Source: Acidobacteriota bacterium (GTDB lineage: Bacteria > Acidobacteriota > Blastocatellia > Pyrinomonadales > Pyrinomonadaceae). From it: a DNA stretch of 64,000 nt. The notes below the pieces were generated by a model. The model was not told where the DNA came from. It ran no database searches and worked only from the letters and a program-made list of their open reading frames with translations. This document shows positions 35,167 to 47,204 of this stretch, piece by piece. Within the stretch, counting starts at the first letter, position 1. Each line of letters opens with the position of its first letter. The stretch covers positions 1,713,001 to 1,777,000 of the forward strand of contig QQUY01000001.1 of assembly GCA_003385635.1 (NCBI GenBank), given 5' to 3'. Both the position numbers and the translations under genes were made by a program.

Positions 35167-36708
35167 TCACCTGGGTCCGCCGAAGTGATCCCCCAGGATC
35201 TCGATCACGTTCTCAATATGCGGGTACATCACCTCGTCGTTCTCGATAAACGGCACTTTCTCGCGAATCTTCTTGTAGACCGTTTCAGTTTCCTGTGCCA
35301 TCTTGCCCACGTCCGGGTCACGGTGTCTTCTTAGATCGATCGCCTGCGCAGCAGAGAGCATTTCAAGAGACAATATCCTTTCCAGGTTTGTCGAGATCCT
35401 GCACAGCTTAAGAGCCGATGTGACGCCCATCGACACGTGGTCTTCGACGTTTGCGGAGCTCGGGATCGTGTCAACGCTCGCAGGATGCGAGAGAACCTTG
35501 TTCTCGGTCGCCAACGCCGCGGCGGTGTACTGCACGATCATGAACCCCGAATTGAGACCGCCGTTCTCCGTGAGAAAGGCGGGCAGGATGTGGGCGTTGG
35601 AATCTTCATCGGTCAGCCGCATTATTCTGCGCTCGGAGATGTTCCCCAGTTCGGATAGCGCGATCGCAAGGTAGTCCATCGCGATCGCCAGAGGTTCCCC
35701 GTGAAAATTGCCTCCCGAGATCACCTCGATCTCGTCGGTATCCTCGTCGGCAAAGATCAAAGGGTTATCGGTAACGGCGTTCAATTCTATATTTACAACC
35801 CATTCCGCGTATGCGATCGCATCACGGCAAGCGCCGTGCACCTGCGGAATGCACCGGAGAGTATACGCATCCTGTATATTTGCGGGATCGTGTCCGCGGG
35901 TAAACTCGCTTCCCTCCAGAATTCTTCTGAGGTTGGCCGCACATTCGACCTGCCTGGGGTGAGGTCTCAATTCGTGGATCCTTTCGTCAAACGCCGCTGT
36001 TGTGCCGTTCAATGCCTCAAGGCTGAGGCACCCGGCAACATCAGCGGCATCGGCCAACCACTTGGCGCGCGCAGTCTGAAGGAGCCCGAGGGCGGTCATT
36101 ACTGACGTGCCGTTCGTTAGCGCGAGGCCTTCTTTGGCTGCAAGCTTGACCGGTTCCAGTCTTGAACGTTCAAGCGCTTTCTTGCTCGGGACCCTCTCGT
36201 TTCCGACAAAGACTTCTCCTTCGCCGATCAGGGGAAGTGCCATATGCGCCAGAGGCGCGAGATCTCCACTCGCACCCAAACTTCCCTGACTAGGTATCAC
36301 AGGGTGGATACCCGAGTTCAGAAGATCGAGTAATAACTGAAGGGTTTCAAGCCTGATCCCCGAAAATCCTCTCGCAAGAGTGTTCGCTCGTATGAGCATC
36401 ACCGCACGGGTCTGAACCTCATCGAGAGGTTCCCCCACACCAACCGCGTGCGACTTGACGATATTCTCCTGAAGCACCTCGACCTGGTCACGGGAGATGA
36501 TCTTGTCCTTAAAAGCGCCAAACCCGGTAGTGATCCCGTAAGCGACCTCACCTCTTTCAAGAAGTCTTTCCACTGCTGTCGCGGAGCGCGTCACCTTTTC
36601 AAGAGCCTCTTCAGAAAGCAAAACGATCGGAGCCCCGGGGGCTCCTTCCGCCACCGCGAGGACTTGTTCAAAGGTAAGCGATTCGCCGTCGAGGAACAGT
36701 TCATTCAT
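35167..36708 (-). CDS. hutH: histidine ammonia-lyase
   Basis: 513 residues. The MIO cofactor forms from A146-S147-G148 in GSLGASGDLAP; the catalytic Tyr is in VAYGITTGFG near 57. Converts L-histidine to urocanate and ammonia, the first step of histidine breakdown. The next two enzymes, hutU (45182) and hutI (37973), are in the window but not adjacent. hutG or a formiminotransferase is not seen. Confidence 0.96.
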   Translation of the reverse strand: MNELFLDGESLTFEQVLAVAEGAPGAPIVLLSEEALEKVTRSATAVERLLERGEVAYGITTGFGAFKDKIISRDQVEVLQENIVKSHAVGVGEPLDEVQTRAVMLIRANTLARGFSGIRLETLQLLLDLLNSGIHPVIPSQGSLGASGDLAPLAHMALPLIGEGEVFVGNERVPSKKALERSRLEPVKLAAKEGLALTNGTSVMTALGLLQTARAKWLADAADVAGCLSLEALNGTTAAFDERIHELRPHPRQVECAANLRRILEGSEFTRGHDPANIQDAYTLRCIPQVHGACRDAIAYAEWVVNIELNAVTDNPLIFADEDTDEIEVISGGNFHGEPLAIAMDYLAIALSELGNISERRIMRLTDEDSNAHILPAFLTENGGLNSGFMIVQYTAAALATENKVLSHPASVDTIPSSANVEDHVSMGVTSALKLCRISTNLERILSLEMLSAAQAIDLRRHRDPDVGKMAQETETVYKKIREKVPFIENDEVMYPHIENVIEILGDHFGGPR

Positions 36709-39267: not shown

Positions 39268-39837
39268 TTACAAACGCTTTTCGAAGGGTAAAGAGTTTCG
39301 AGACCTTCCTACTATGAAGAACAGAACCACTCCGGCAAGAGAAACGAATGCAGATGTGAATTTCAGCTGTGTAAGCACCGAAGAAATAGCCACCAGACCC
39401 CGGTCAATCGATTCAACGTTGTAGGTCGCAAATTGAATCAGGAAACAGTTCTCCAAAGCGTCAAAAACAAACATCGATGCCGGAAAGAAAGCCAGCCACT
39501 TCGCGGATTCACTATCTTCGACACTATCTGCGACCCCAAGCGACAAAAACACAAGTCCGATCGCAACGAGCAGCGATATCCCCAGCGAATAAAACTGCAG
39601 GTCGTAGTACGCGCTTATATATTGCTGGTGGGCATCGCACACCTCGATGACAAGGCGGCCCATAAAATCCACGAGCTCACGATGTGAATATCCAAAGCGA
39701 TGTTCCGGCAACACCGGGGCTCCAACATCCAAGTTCAGGAGTTCGGATATACCGAATGCTCTAATCGCAAGGGCGATCACGGCCCCGACCAGGATAGAAA
39801 CGAAACCGGCTATGTATTTTTCTGAAGTCTTCAACAT
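39268..39837 (-). CDS. four-helix membrane protein, paralogue 2
   Basis: 189 residues from ATG 39837. Four predicted transmembrane helices (FVSILVGAVIALAIRAF, FYSLGISLLVAIGLVFLSL, LAFFPASMFVFDALENCF, FTSAFVSLAGVVLFFIV). It shares with the gene just upstream (39932-40492) the order APVLPEHRFGYSHRELVDFMGRL, YYDLQFYSLG and a FP..MFVFDALEN motif, so they are tandem paralogues of ~30% similarity by eye. Family not recognised. hutI starts 11 bases later. Confidence 0.8.
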   Translation of the reverse strand: MLKTSEKYIAGFVSILVGAVIALAIRAFGISELLNLDVGAPVLPEHRFGYSHRELVDFMGRLVIEVCDAHQQYISAYYDLQFYSLGISLLVAIGLVFLSLGVADSVEDSESAKWLAFFPASMFVFDALENCFLIQFATYNVESIDRGLVAISSVLTQLKFTSAFVSLAGVVLFFIVGRSRNSLPFEKRL

Positions 39838-39931
39838 CCCGTGAGGATCCCTTTTGTCCAACTGCTCCGGAAATCGACTCCTATCAGAAACAACTTCCGC
39901 AACCTGGACAACGTGGGGAGCCACACAGGGG

Positions 39932-40492
39932 CTAAACGATCTCCTGAGAATTCTTTGAGGTTCGCCTTCGGAACCAGACAACGACAGCTGCGACTAGCAA
40001 GACGGCGAACACGACCAATGTGAATGAACCCGCAATCATTTTGAAGAAGTTCAGAGTGCCGGCCAACTCGCCGAGCCCAAAAAATCTGAGAGGCAATCTG
40101 TCGATCGTGTTTATAAGAACAACATTCTCGGCGAGATCAAAAACTGCCAACGTCACCGGAAATGCGACGAGGAGCCGGACCCAGGACCTTTCCGTTACGA
40201 TCCGGCTGAGCATCCATATCAAAGTCACGAATGCAGCTCCGGTAAGAAGAGCGTTCGGTATGTCGAAATACTGAAATCGCGAATAAAGGTCTATGGTCTC
40301 GGCAGAAAGCGGTTCGAGAAAGGCGAACAGATCGGCGCCTGTGAAACCGAACCGTTCCTCGGGAAGCTCGGCTCCTGAAACCGCCGCTTTCAGGTTTGAA
40401 TAAGGTCCAAGTGCGAAGAGAAATACCGAGTATCCGATCCATACGACCGGGATCAGGGTAGCCACCAATACCGATTTCCGGCCCGATCTCAT
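39932..40492 (-). CDS. four-helix membrane protein, paralogue 1
   Basis: 186 residues. Four predicted transmembrane helices ([77 protein letters not shown]). Between helices 1 and 2 is [22 protein letters not shown], and helix 3 ends with VFDLAENV; both recur in the next gene. No Cys. Its ATG overlaps the stop of the probable selenoprotein (ATGA, 40492-40489), which implies translational coupling. Function unknown. Confidence 0.82.
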
Positions 40493-41076
40493 TCCGCCGC
40501 TCCCGCCGCTTCTTCCCGCCCGATCCCGAGAGCGTCGGCTACTCTGTTTATGTAGTTGAACCAGGAGGCAATGAGGGTGATCTGCAGGATCGCAGTATCA
40601 TCGAACCCCACCTTGCGAAGCTCCTCGATATGGCCCGGATGAAGTCTGACGGCATCCTTCGTCATCTGGATCGCGAAGTCGCACATCACGCGCTCCGCCT
40701 CCGTGATCGGGGCATTTTCGTAATCGCTGCGAAGCGCTTCGATCAGACCGTCGTCCAATGTGACGTGACGCAGAAACTCTGCGTGGGACTCCACTCAGTA
40801 AAAGCAATCGTTCGTGTCCGAAACAACCGTCGCGATCATCTCCTGCTGGCGCCTTTCGAGCGGAAGGTCGTCCTTCAGAAGAGTGCTCAGCAGCATGAAC
40901 GAGTGATAGAGGGCGTCCGGGATAAGCGTATGGGACTCGATTATCGACTCATCAAACTGGATAGTCTGCGGATGAACCGTTCCGTACTCCTTCGGATAGG
41001 TCTCGCGCACCTTTCCGATCAGTTCGAGCAGATCGCCCTCTGCATTCTCAGGCTTGATCGTCTTTATCCACGCCAT
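40489..41076 (-). CDS. AhpD-like peroxidase-related selenoprotein (Sec at UGA codon 94)
   Basis: 195 residues if TGA at 40797-40795 is read as selenocysteine. Without it there is a 93-residue piece ending ...NDCFY and a piece starting [10 protein letters not shown]. Joined, they give a full-length carboxymuconolactone-decarboxylase/AhpD-like peroxidase-related protein: MAWIKTI start, [54 protein letters not shown] end. The family's redox motif is CxxC followed by His three residues on; here it is C91-F-Y-U94 and H98. A SECIS-like hairpin follows the UGA (40768-40784). The stop overlaps the next gene's start (ATGA). The alternatives are a nonsense mutation or a sequence error. Sec machinery is not in the window. 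Confidence 0.82.
40768..40797 (-). promoter_or_regulatory. SECIS-like hairpin with the Sec UGA
   Basis: On the minus strand TGA at 40797-40795, then 17 bases, then a 3-base apical loop GTT (40777-40775) closed by a perfect 7-bp stem ACGCAGA/TCTGCGT. A G as first loop base, 16-37 bases from the UGA, fits the published bacterial SECIS consensus as I know it. Confidence 0.75.
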
Positions 41077-41250
41077 GGGAAGTTAGTTTAGTAATGTGTT
41101 CAGAGTGTGTCCAACCTTCTTCATTGCGTTACTTTGCGGCTTAGCGCCTTGGCGAGAGGCTCGTTGCCTTTCTGTGTGGATTGATGACAAACGAACACAG
41201 ACTCCCCCAAAGGCGCTAAGCCGCCAGGAACCGCAAAGAAAACCCGAGAA

Positions 41251-42552
41251 CTAATCGTTGCTTCTTCTAAAGATCAAGTAGTAAACAGGTATCCCGACCA
41301 GCACAATGCCGACCCCTACGAGATTCTGAACCGGATCCTGGAGGAAGATCATTACGCAGACGCCGATCGTGATCAGAATGTAGACGATCGGCACGAGCGG
41401 GAATAGCGGCGTCCGATAGCCTTCGTGCTGTCGTTTCCTGAGCCAGAAAAGTCCAAGGACCGCCGCCGCCGGGAACAGGATCGCGATCATAAAAAAGTAG
41501 GAGATGATCTGCCCGAACGAACCGGACGCGATCAGCACGCAGGCGAGCACGATCTGGACAAGGATCGCCAGGTATGGCGTCCCGAACTTCTCGTGCGGCC
41601 TTCCAAAAGCGCGGAAGAACAACCCTTCCCGGGCCATCGCGAAATAAACCCTCGGTCCTGACATCAGGTAAGCAAAGAGCGTCCCCAATACCGAAATCAC
41701 AACTATCGCCGCAAAGACTGCTCCGCCGGCCGGGCCAAACAGCGCCTCTCCCGCCTGAGCCGCGAATGTCGTATCGTCTTTCACATTTGCGATCGGTACA
41801 AGATAAATGAAGACCGCGCTGGTCAAGACGTAAAGAACAGTTATCAGGCCTACACCTGCTGAAAGCGCGATCGGCAACGTGCGCTGGGGGTCTTTAACCT
41901 CGCCCGCGATCCGCGTCACGTCCCACCATCCCGCGAAGGCAAAGTAAGCGCCGATCGAACCAGCTATCAGAGCGCCGGTCCATTCAGGCGGCTCCGAAAA
42001 GAAAGGCGAAAAATTGTCCCAGTCCCCGAAGCCCCCAAAAAATCCAAAAGCCACAAGGAAAACAAGGACTCCGATCTTCAGCACCGTAAGGAGCGTAAGT
42101 GCGGACGCGCCGACCCGTGCACCGAACATGTTCACGGCTCCCACCGCGATAACGACAACGATAGCGACCGCGGTTTGAGCAGATGACGAAAGCGGAACTA
42201 TGAAGGAAAAGTAGCTTGCAAAGCCGACACCGAAGATCGCCGTCAGGCCCGGATCGACAACAAGCAACACGACCCACCCGTACAAGAACGCGAGTCCGTC
42301 GCCGTATGCCTCCCGGAGGAACACGAACGGCCCTCCTGCTTTCGGATACCGGGCCGACAGCTCGGAGTAACTAAGCGCGCCGCAAAGTGTAGCCAGGCCT
42401 ATTACTATCCAGATAACGAAAAGCCAGAAGGGAGATTGAACTCCTTTCGCCATCCCGGCGGGCGTGAGAAAAATTCCGACCGCGATCACTTGACCGATTA
42501 TCAACGCGGTCGCTGTCCAAACACCGAACTGTCTCTTTAGATCTTCGGACAT
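41251..42552 (-). CDS. APC family amino-acid permease
   Basis: 433 residues from ATG 42552; a TTG at 42558 with better ribosome-binding-site spacing (AGGAG, five bases) is an equal alternative. About 12 transmembrane helices. Motifs: IIGQVIAVGIFLTPAGMAKG in helix 1 (substrate-binding GxG-like region), SELSARYPKAGGPFVFLREAYG, and YFAFAGWWDVTRIAGEVKDPQRTLP. Inner-membrane amino-acid uptake or exchange; the substrate is not readable, though nearby hut genes make histidine a guess only. Confidence 0.92.
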   Translation of the reverse strand: MSEDLKRQFGVWTATALIIGQVIAVGIFLTPAGMAKGVQSPFWLFVIWIVIGLATLCGALSYSELSARYPKAGGPFVFLREAYGDGLAFLYGWVVLLVVDPGLTAIFGVGFASYFSFIVPLSSSAQTAVAIVVVIAVGAVNMFGARVGASALTLLTVLKIGVLVFLVAFGFFGGFGDWDNFSPFFSEPPEWTGALIAGSIGAYFAFAGWWDVTRIAGEVKDPQRTLPIALSAGVGLITVLYVLTSAVFIYLVPIANVKDDTTFAAQAGEALFGPAGGAVFAAIVVISVLGTLFAYLMSGPRVYFAMAREGLFFRAFGRPHEKFGTPYLAILVQIVLACVLIASGSFGQIISYFFMIAILFPAAAVLGLFWLRKRQHEGYRTPLFPLVPIVYILITIGVCVMIFLQDPVQNLVGVGIVLVGIPVYYLIFRRSND

Positions 42553-42680
42553 CTGCAATTCATCTCCTGCATATCGTGGTAAATGCCAGATAGTGTTTCG
42601 CCCCGGCAGTTCCTATGATCCCGGAACAGCGCGGGGCGCCAACTATCCTAGATTTTTTCTCACCTATTGCAAGGAACCCG

Positions 42681-45181: not shown

Positions 45182-46828
45182 TCACTTCATCGGCACGATG
45201 ACGCCTTCCTTTTCCGCAAAGTCGATCGCCTCTTCGTAGCCCGCATCTGCGTGCCTGATGACACCCATTCCCGGATCAGACGTGAGCACGCGTTCGATCC
45301 TTTTCGCCGCCTCCGGCGTACCATCCGCGACGATCACCTGTCCTGCGTGAAGTGAGTAGCCGATGCCAACACCGCCGCCGTGATGAAGGCTGACCCATGT
45401 CGCGCCTCCCACGGCGTTGATCATCGCGTTGAGATACACCCAGTCCGCGATCGCGTCCGATCCGTCCTTCATCGCTTCCGTCTCTCTGTTCGGAGAAGCG
45501 ACCGAACCGCAATCAAGGTGGTCACGGCCGATCACGATCGGAGCTTTCAGCTCACCGCTTGCGACCATTTCGTTAAGTTTCAAACCGGCTTTCGATCTTT
45601 CACCGTAGCCAAGCCAGCAGATCCTGGCCGGAAGCCCCTGGAACTCGACCTGCTCCTGCGCCATCGTCAACCATCGCGTAAGGTGATCGTTCTCGGGAAA
45701 GAGGTTCATTATCGCTTGGTCCGTTCTATATATGTCTTCCTTCTCGCCTGAAAGAGCAACCCATCGGAAGGGGCCTTTCCCTTCGCAGAAGAGTGGCCTG
45801 ATATAGGCCGGAACAAATCCCGGATAGTCGAACGCGTTTGGAACGCCGTTGTCCAAGGCCCTCTGTCGCAAGTTGTTTCCGTAATCGAATACGATCGAGC
45901 CGCGCTTCTGAAACTCGAGCATTGCCTCGACATGTTTCGCCATCGAGTCCATCGCGCGACGCTCGTATTGGGCTTGATCGGACTTTCTGAGATCGTCCGC
46001 TTCTTCCAGTGAGAGGCCTTCGGGGATATAGCCGAAAAGAACGTCGTGAGCGGATGTCTGGTCGGTGACGATATCAGGAACAATTCCCCGCTCAAGGATT
46101 TGGTGATGGACTTCCGCGGCATTTCCAAGCAACGCCACAGAAAGCGCCTCACCGTTCGCGGCCGCGGCCCGGACCATTTCAAGTGCTTCGTCGAGATCGT
46201 CCGACCCGCGATCGACCTGTTTCAGATTCAGGCGCCTTTCGATACGCCACGGATCCACATCGACAAGAAGCCCCGCTCCGCCGTTGAACGTGATCGCCTG
46301 CGCCTGTGCGCCCCCCATTTCGCCGAGGCCCGCAGTCAGCACGACCTTCCCTTTCAGAGAACTCCATCCCTTTTGCCTAGCAAGCGATCCAAAGGTTTCG
46401 TACGTGCCTTGAAGGATTCCCTGTGTGCCTATGTAGATCCAGCTTCCGGCGGTCATCTGGCCGTACATCATCAAGCCTTCGCGCTCGTATTCGTCAAATT
46501 GTTCCTGTGTTGCCCAGTGCGGAACGATGTTCGAATTGGCAAGAAGGACCTTTGGCGCGTCGAGGTGCGATCTAAAAACTCCGACCGGCTTTCCTGACTG
46601 AACAAGTAAAGTCTCGTCGTCTTCAAGGCTCTTTAGGCTCTCGAGGATCGCGTCGAAACTCTCCCAATCACGCGCTGCCTTTCCGCGCCCTCCGTAAACG
46701 ATCAGGTTGTCCGGATCAAACGCTACATCCGGATCAAGATTGTTCTGGATCATCCTGTAAGCGGCCTCGGTCAGCCAGCTTTTACAGGTTAGCTCTGTCC
46801 CGCGCGGAGCGCGCACTTCACGTTTCAT
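45182..46828 (-). CDS. hutU: urocanate hydratase
   Basis: 548 residues from ATG 46828. Hallmarks: [49 protein letters not shown] (NAD-binding), [45 protein letters not shown]. Adds water to urocanate to form imidazolonepropionate, using NAD+ as a bound cofactor. Its start overlaps the stop of the DUF2784 gene by 11 bases, so the two are cotranscribed. Confidence 0.96.
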
Positions 46829-47204
46829 AAGGTCTACTTGTAAATGCCAACGATCCGTTCCGCAATAGGAATGCGTAGATCGCAATGTTGACAATCGCCA
46901 GCAAGACGCCGAGCACGATGTGAGATTCGGGCGGCAGTCCGGGATAAATGATCTTGGAAAGGAGATGATCGATCAGCCCTGCTTCGTATCCCGCCTGACC
47001 GGCCATCGTTCTGAAGTAATTCTCGAGTCTGGTCAAAGGACAGGAAAGCATCAGAAACTCAACGAGAAACGACCACACGAGTGCCAACACGTGAAGCATC
47101 CACGCCCTCGGCCATTTGAGAGAGAGCAGTCCCCCGATGATCGCAAACACTATGAATGCGAGGTGAAGGATCAAAACCAGATTGGCAAGTGATGCGTAGA
47201 ACAT
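46818..47204 (-). CDS. DUF2784 membrane protein
   Basis: 128 residues. About three to four transmembrane helices ([62 protein letters not shown]) with the conserved middle [34 protein letters not shown] typical of DUF2784 proteins. Function unknown. Stop overlaps the hutU start by 11 bases, an unexpected partner for a histidine-breakdown enzyme. Confidence 0.9.

Follow-up and report, generated by a model that had tools for sequence, protein, structure and literature searches.

The window analysed here, a stretch of 64,000 nucleotides from contig QQUY01000001.1 of an acidobacterial genome, raises the question of whether a TGA that divides an AhpD-like gene is a stop codon or a codon for selenocysteine (Sec). 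Two minus-strand frames, 41076-40798 and 40794-40489, belong to the same reading frame, and their sole break is the TGA at 40797-40795. Reading through this codon from 41076 to 40489 yields a protein of 195 aa with U at position 94, which ends at an ordinary TGA stop at 40491-40489. An earlier sequence-only reading had likewise described two frames joined by a single in-frame TGA, and the continuous readthrough product confirms that description. The features on which the argument depends are as follows.

40489..41076, minus strand: predicted Sec-containing AhpD-like peroxidase-related protein, 195 aa (TIGR01926, CMD PF02627, readthrough translation)
40795..40797, minus strand: predicted Sec codon TGA (U94), second position of CxxC (TGA in relatives; aligned with the Cys of 2pfx)
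40768..40784, minus strand: bacterial SECIS-type hairpin ACGCAGA-GTT-TCTGCGT, with the loop G at 40777 (fold, synonymous freeze, covariation, contrast between Sec and Cys copies)

The joined product had also been taken for a complete member of the AhpD/CMD family, and profile searches agree with this assignment. The readthrough protein scores 105 bits against TIGR01926 (peroxidase-related enzyme), for which the cut-off is 81.8, and a six-frame search returns a TIGR01926 match of 97 bits to the selenoprotein gene. The CMD domain PF02627 is matched by the joined 195-aa protein, and neither half of the split gene reaches the CMD gathering score alone. The same protein falls below the cut-offs of TIGR00777, which represents AhpD proper (19.8 bits versus 192), and of NF041238, or AhpD_rel_CFYUT (66 bits versus 175). 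Within the motif C91-F-Y-U94, the TGA stands at the second Cys of CxxC as proposed, and it aligns with the Cys of solved homologues (2pfx) and of Cys copies. His98 is located four residues past U94, which corrects the spacing of three residues given previously. An in-frame UGA that falls on a redox-active Cys position, in a family for which Cys homologues exist (2pfx and L119, discussed below), is one mark of a selenoprotein.

A scan of 84,980 genomes produced 226 related stretches, and the best 80 were kept. These come from Acidobacteriota, Gemmatimonadota, Latescibacterota, and Planctomycetota. All 80 of these best relatives carry TGA at codon 94 and continue in frame beyond it. None has TGC or TGT at the codon, a random stop, or a frameshift, any of which the sequence-only reading had named as counting against its own proposal. 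Because none of the search patterns covered the hairpin codons, and because the motif pattern was written with Cys at the site, the choice of loci was not biased toward TGA or toward the hairpin. Downstream of the TGA, comparison with eight relatives gives pN values of 0.15-0.24 and pS values of 0.64-0.83, with synonymous sites so near saturation that dN/dS is imprecise. Given the difference between these values, the half of the gene that follows the TGA appears to be part of a working protein.

The hairpin is as first described, with a perfect 7-bp stem, a GTT loop, and a loop G that is the 18th base after the TGA. In the bacterial SECIS model, as presented in a 2026 review, a G occurs in the first two loop bases at a distance of 16-37 nt from the UGA (PMC13188914). 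The window hairpin fits this model, which is another mark of a selenoprotein. The total fold energy of a 61-nt stretch is not exceptional relative to dinucleotide shuffles (z -1.2), and this measure was dropped as a SECIS test because its values fail to distinguish Sec copies from Cys copies. In its place, we compared a placed-hairpin score with synonymous recoding, under the rule that a G must be present in the first two loop bases and that the loop must start at base 15-30 after the TGA. When the peptide encoded here is synonymously recoded, the placed hairpin with its loop G is attained in only 1.2% of cases.

Among the 80 kept relatives the hairpin is nearly invariant. Across 81 loci, a synonymous freeze is confined to codons 98-103, where identity is 0.95-1.00 and the expected values are 0.23-0.80, as exemplified by Leu-102 (CTG, 100%), Arg-103 (CGT, 99%), and Ala-99 (GCA, 98%). 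At the other codons of these loci, synonymous identity is near expectation. By this comparison, the freeze has the look of an RNA element inside the gene, and conservation of the hairpin exceeds what the amino-acid sequence demands. Furthermore, a placed hairpin of at least 6 bp is found in 133 of 138 Sec copies, a set in which some genes are represented by a locus from each search, versus 6 of 23 Cys homologues. The loops of 108 Sec copies start at base 18 and are three bases long, whereas the matches in Cys homologues share no register. Values of p<=0.05 against synonymous recoding were obtained for 118 of the 138 Sec copies and 4 of the 23 Cys homologues, although these counts are descriptive given that the sequences are related.

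Stem covariation was evaluated with 28 diverged Sec copies, among which 14 cells are altered on both sides versus 6.3 after shuffling, and the covariation score is 0.241 versus 0.126. Paired cells amount to 91.8% versus 29-53% in slid controls, whose covariation scores are also lower throughout. The clearest case is pair 17-27, which is C-G among the close copies and G-C among the distant ones, with the 3′ side changing through a synonymous Leu substitution (CTG to CTC). Close relatives show little variation in pairing, so most of the covariation comes from two base pairs. Judged from these alignments, distant Sec homologues retain the hairpin via compensatory changes and Cys homologues do not.

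The register of the hairpin differs in some distant branches, where the loop is at base 20 or 25. Distant Sec homologues with the loop at base 25 (L123, L134, L137, L141, L142, and L146) share the form cgacctc-NNNNNN-gaggtcg, and this shift suggests that SECIS elements have turned over inside a single family. For some very distant Sec-type homologues (L161, L165, L150, and L155), the placed-hairpin rule yields no good hairpin.

A decaying pseudogene or a sequencing error, with a Cys codon TGC or TGT mutated or misread to TGA, would require only one base change and would suit a mechanical ORF call that sees the halves as separate ORFs, but it is already refuted by the same TGA in every kept relative and is further opposed by the strong purifying selection past the TGA and the frozen hairpin codons, so that practically no likelihood is left to it.

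Sec insertion also demands dedicated machinery, and the sequence-only reading had proposed a search of the genome for the sel genes. All were found. In the host genome, which comprises 4.13 Mb on 3 contigs, there are profile matches for selA (542 bits), selB (385 bits), and selD (349 bits), together with a tRNA-Sec (selC) whose anticodon is TCA. The joint presence of selA, selB, selC, and selD is a further mark of a selenoprotein. In control searches, the tRNA-Sec family model alone also matches tRNA-Ser. The host SelD gene (L099, C2:657137-658060) has an in-frame TGA of its own, in the context VSCAGUVAKL, and SelD is itself probably a second selenoprotein.

In a survey of 199 Acidobacteriota genomes, 47 have a homologue in which the site is TGA, and 13 others have Cys homologues only. 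A selB gene is present in 46 of the 47 TGA-copy genomes versus 4 of the 13 Cys-only genomes (Fisher p 4e-7). The lone TGA-copy genome without a selB match, G080, is 75% complete and has a tRNA-Sec. Genome G014 lacks both selB and tRNA-Sec, and its best match to the latter (47.1 bits) is a tRNA-Ser according to ARAGORN. In its homologue L119, the codon at the site is TGC, the first Cys is replaced by T, and the hairpin is gone. On the tree, L119 is located inside the Sec clade, where its grouping with L117 and L118 is supported at 93/95. Thus, L119 looks like a Sec-to-Cys reversion that accompanied loss of the Sec machinery. Within 4 kb, the surrounding locus (L185, on G014 contig C125) has three CMD-family genes of the Cys type, namely L167, L177, and the reverted copy L119.

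These data also bear on the possibility that the TGA is read as an ordinary amino acid (Trp or another), for which Sec machinery would be unnecessary, or that translation terminates and re-initiates at the GTG at 40794, directly after the TGA, to give two proteins. Either event is very improbable. The TGA is placed exactly at the catalytic Cys, it tracks selB, and loss of selB accompanies TGC at this codon. The codon that follows the TGA is Ile (ATC, ATT, or ATA) in most relatives, which is not a common start codon, and the hairpin has the form expected of a bacterial SECIS element in the review (PMC13188914).

With the Sec codon, the hairpin, the complete Sec machinery, the conservation, and the selection past the TGA all evident at the level of sequence, we are almost certain that the gene encodes a Sec-containing AhpD-like (TIGR01926) thiol/selenol oxidoreductase in which UGA94 would be read as Sec via SelB and the hairpin. 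SelB carrying Sec-tRNA(UCA) would bind the hairpin just 3′ of the UGA, and residue 94, at the second redox position of CxxU, would thereby become selenocysteine. Attack on peroxide or another oxidised substrate falls, in AhpD-type enzymes, to the second Cys of the CxxC motif, acting together with a nearby His, and the first Cys resolves. From this knowledge and from the alignment with solved homologues, we infer that the U94 selenol would attack peroxide or another oxidised substrate, with Sec raising reactivity, that C91 might serve as the resolver by forming a selenenylsulfide with U94, and that H98 could function as a proton relay.

The genes around this predicted selenoprotein offer additional context.

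41251..42558, minus strand: APC-family amino-acid permease, immediately upstream, a recurring neighbour (PF13520, 186 bits)
39932..40492, minus strand: small membrane-type protein of no family, whose ATG overlaps the selenoprotein stop (ATGA); L058 has a homologue in the same place
39268..39981, minus strand: second small membrane-type protein, a distant paralogue of the first (27% identity), with a homologue in L058
37973..39265, minus strand: imidazolonepropionase HutI (TIGR01224, 442 bits)
35167..36708, minus strand: histidine ammonia-lyase HutH (TIGR01225, 644 bits)
45182..46894, minus strand: urocanate hydratase HutU (TIGR01228, 955 bits)

The clustering of neighbour ORFs is partly an antisense artefact, and only the same-strand permease cluster was used. 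An APC permease is located upstream on the same strand at 23 of the 63 loci with enough upstream sequence, comprising 12 of 52 in Acidobacteriota, 7 of 7 in Gemmatimonadota, 2 of 2 in Latescibacterota, and 2 of 2 in Planctomycetota. Distances among the permease proteins correlate with those among the selenoproteins (Mantel r 0.66, n 28, p 0.0005). This correlation fits a shared history, which could reflect joint transfer and vertical descent alike. Between the permease and selenoprotein genes of the window, an inverted repeat with 42-nt arms that are 79% complementary spans 41120-41240. Because the element or its arms have 25 matches in the genome, with both strands counted at some places, it is a dispersed palindromic repeat.

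HutI is encoded directly downstream of the selenoprotein gene in L010-L012 and L020. In the window, the two small membrane-type genes separate the selenoprotein gene from hutI, and the same pair is present in L058 (Aridibacter famidurans), the only one of the fetched loci with homologues of both at this place. The MscS homologue of L058 is 90% identical to that of the window. The two small membrane-type proteins (39268-40492) have zero matches to Pfam or NCBIfam. The ATGA overlap suggests translational coupling of the selenoprotein with the 39932..40492 gene, and ribosomes that arrive at the selenoprotein stop would be well placed to start the next gene.

This setting is pertinent to an alternative that rivals only the catalytic part of our interpretation. 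Perhaps the protein is a selenoprotein but not a peroxidase. It might instead be a selenol/thiol redox partner for the reduction or formation of disulfides or selenenylsulfides, or it might process an oxidised amino-acid derivative that the adjacent permease takes up. The recurrence of the upstream permease, which holds for all 11 testable loci of the other phyla and for the 12 of 52 in Acidobacteriota, is consistent with this possibility, as are the correlated distances and the hut context. However, gene order says little about substrate, the permease is absent next door at many loci, and no substrate-specific model accepts the window's permease. We consider this alternative unlikely, albeit with a real chance of being correct.

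Joint action of the predicted enzyme with the adjacent permease and with the hut genes is speculative, and as a clue to the substrate this context offers no more than a lead. A tentative and rather doubtful proposal is that the genes for Sec-AhpD and for the APC permease upstream of it constitute a transferable two-gene module, which occurs in at least four phyla. The selenoenzyme of this module would act on a compound that enters the cell as an amino acid or along with one, and in this acidobacterium and some of its close relatives the module would have become part of the histidine-utilisation locus. The permease link provides a first testable lead to a physiological role.

More generally, standard gene calling splits this selenoprotein family, which is common in Acidobacteriota, with a Sec copy of the TIGR01926-type family or a relative in the 47 of 199 sampled species. 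The data set is also unusually clean, combining a synonymous freeze restricted to the SECIS element, compensatory stem changes, and a natural Sec-to-Cys reversion in a genome that lacks the Sec machinery.

The kind of protein is already known. In the 2026 review, an AhpD-like CxxU selenoprotein is listed under TIGR01926, citing its reference 59 (PMC13188914), and a Sargasso Sea survey of a marine sample reports 27 AhpD-like CXXU genes (PMC1088965). The sequence-only reading was thus correct that AhpD-like selenoproteins occur in other bacteria. Its expectation that this one would be new for its neighbourhood stands only in part, given that the family was already listed and that Sec copies are common in the phylum. 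What is new here is the recurrence of the permease and the placement among hut genes. Our literature search, whose coverage was incomplete, found no description of a permease or hut association.

The window gene resembles the listed TIGR01926 CxxU family in its NCBIfam model, its CxxU motif, and a SECIS element right after the UGA (PMC13188914), whereas the Sargasso AhpD-like sequences are marine and the window gene is acidobacterial, beside an amino-acid permease and hut genes (PMC1088965). NF041238, the AhpD-related (seleno)protein CFYUT (hypothetical protein 1, Sargasso Sea), is similar in having a related domain and CxxU, but it is a separate, longer family of 357 positions, and the window protein falls far under its cut-off. 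The solved peroxidase-related proteins 2pfx, 2oyo, 3c1l, 6k40, and 2prr belong to the same family by sequence and have Cys instead of Sec, and in 2pfx and 2oyo the CxxC...H arrangement aligns with C91-x-x-U94...H98 of the window protein.
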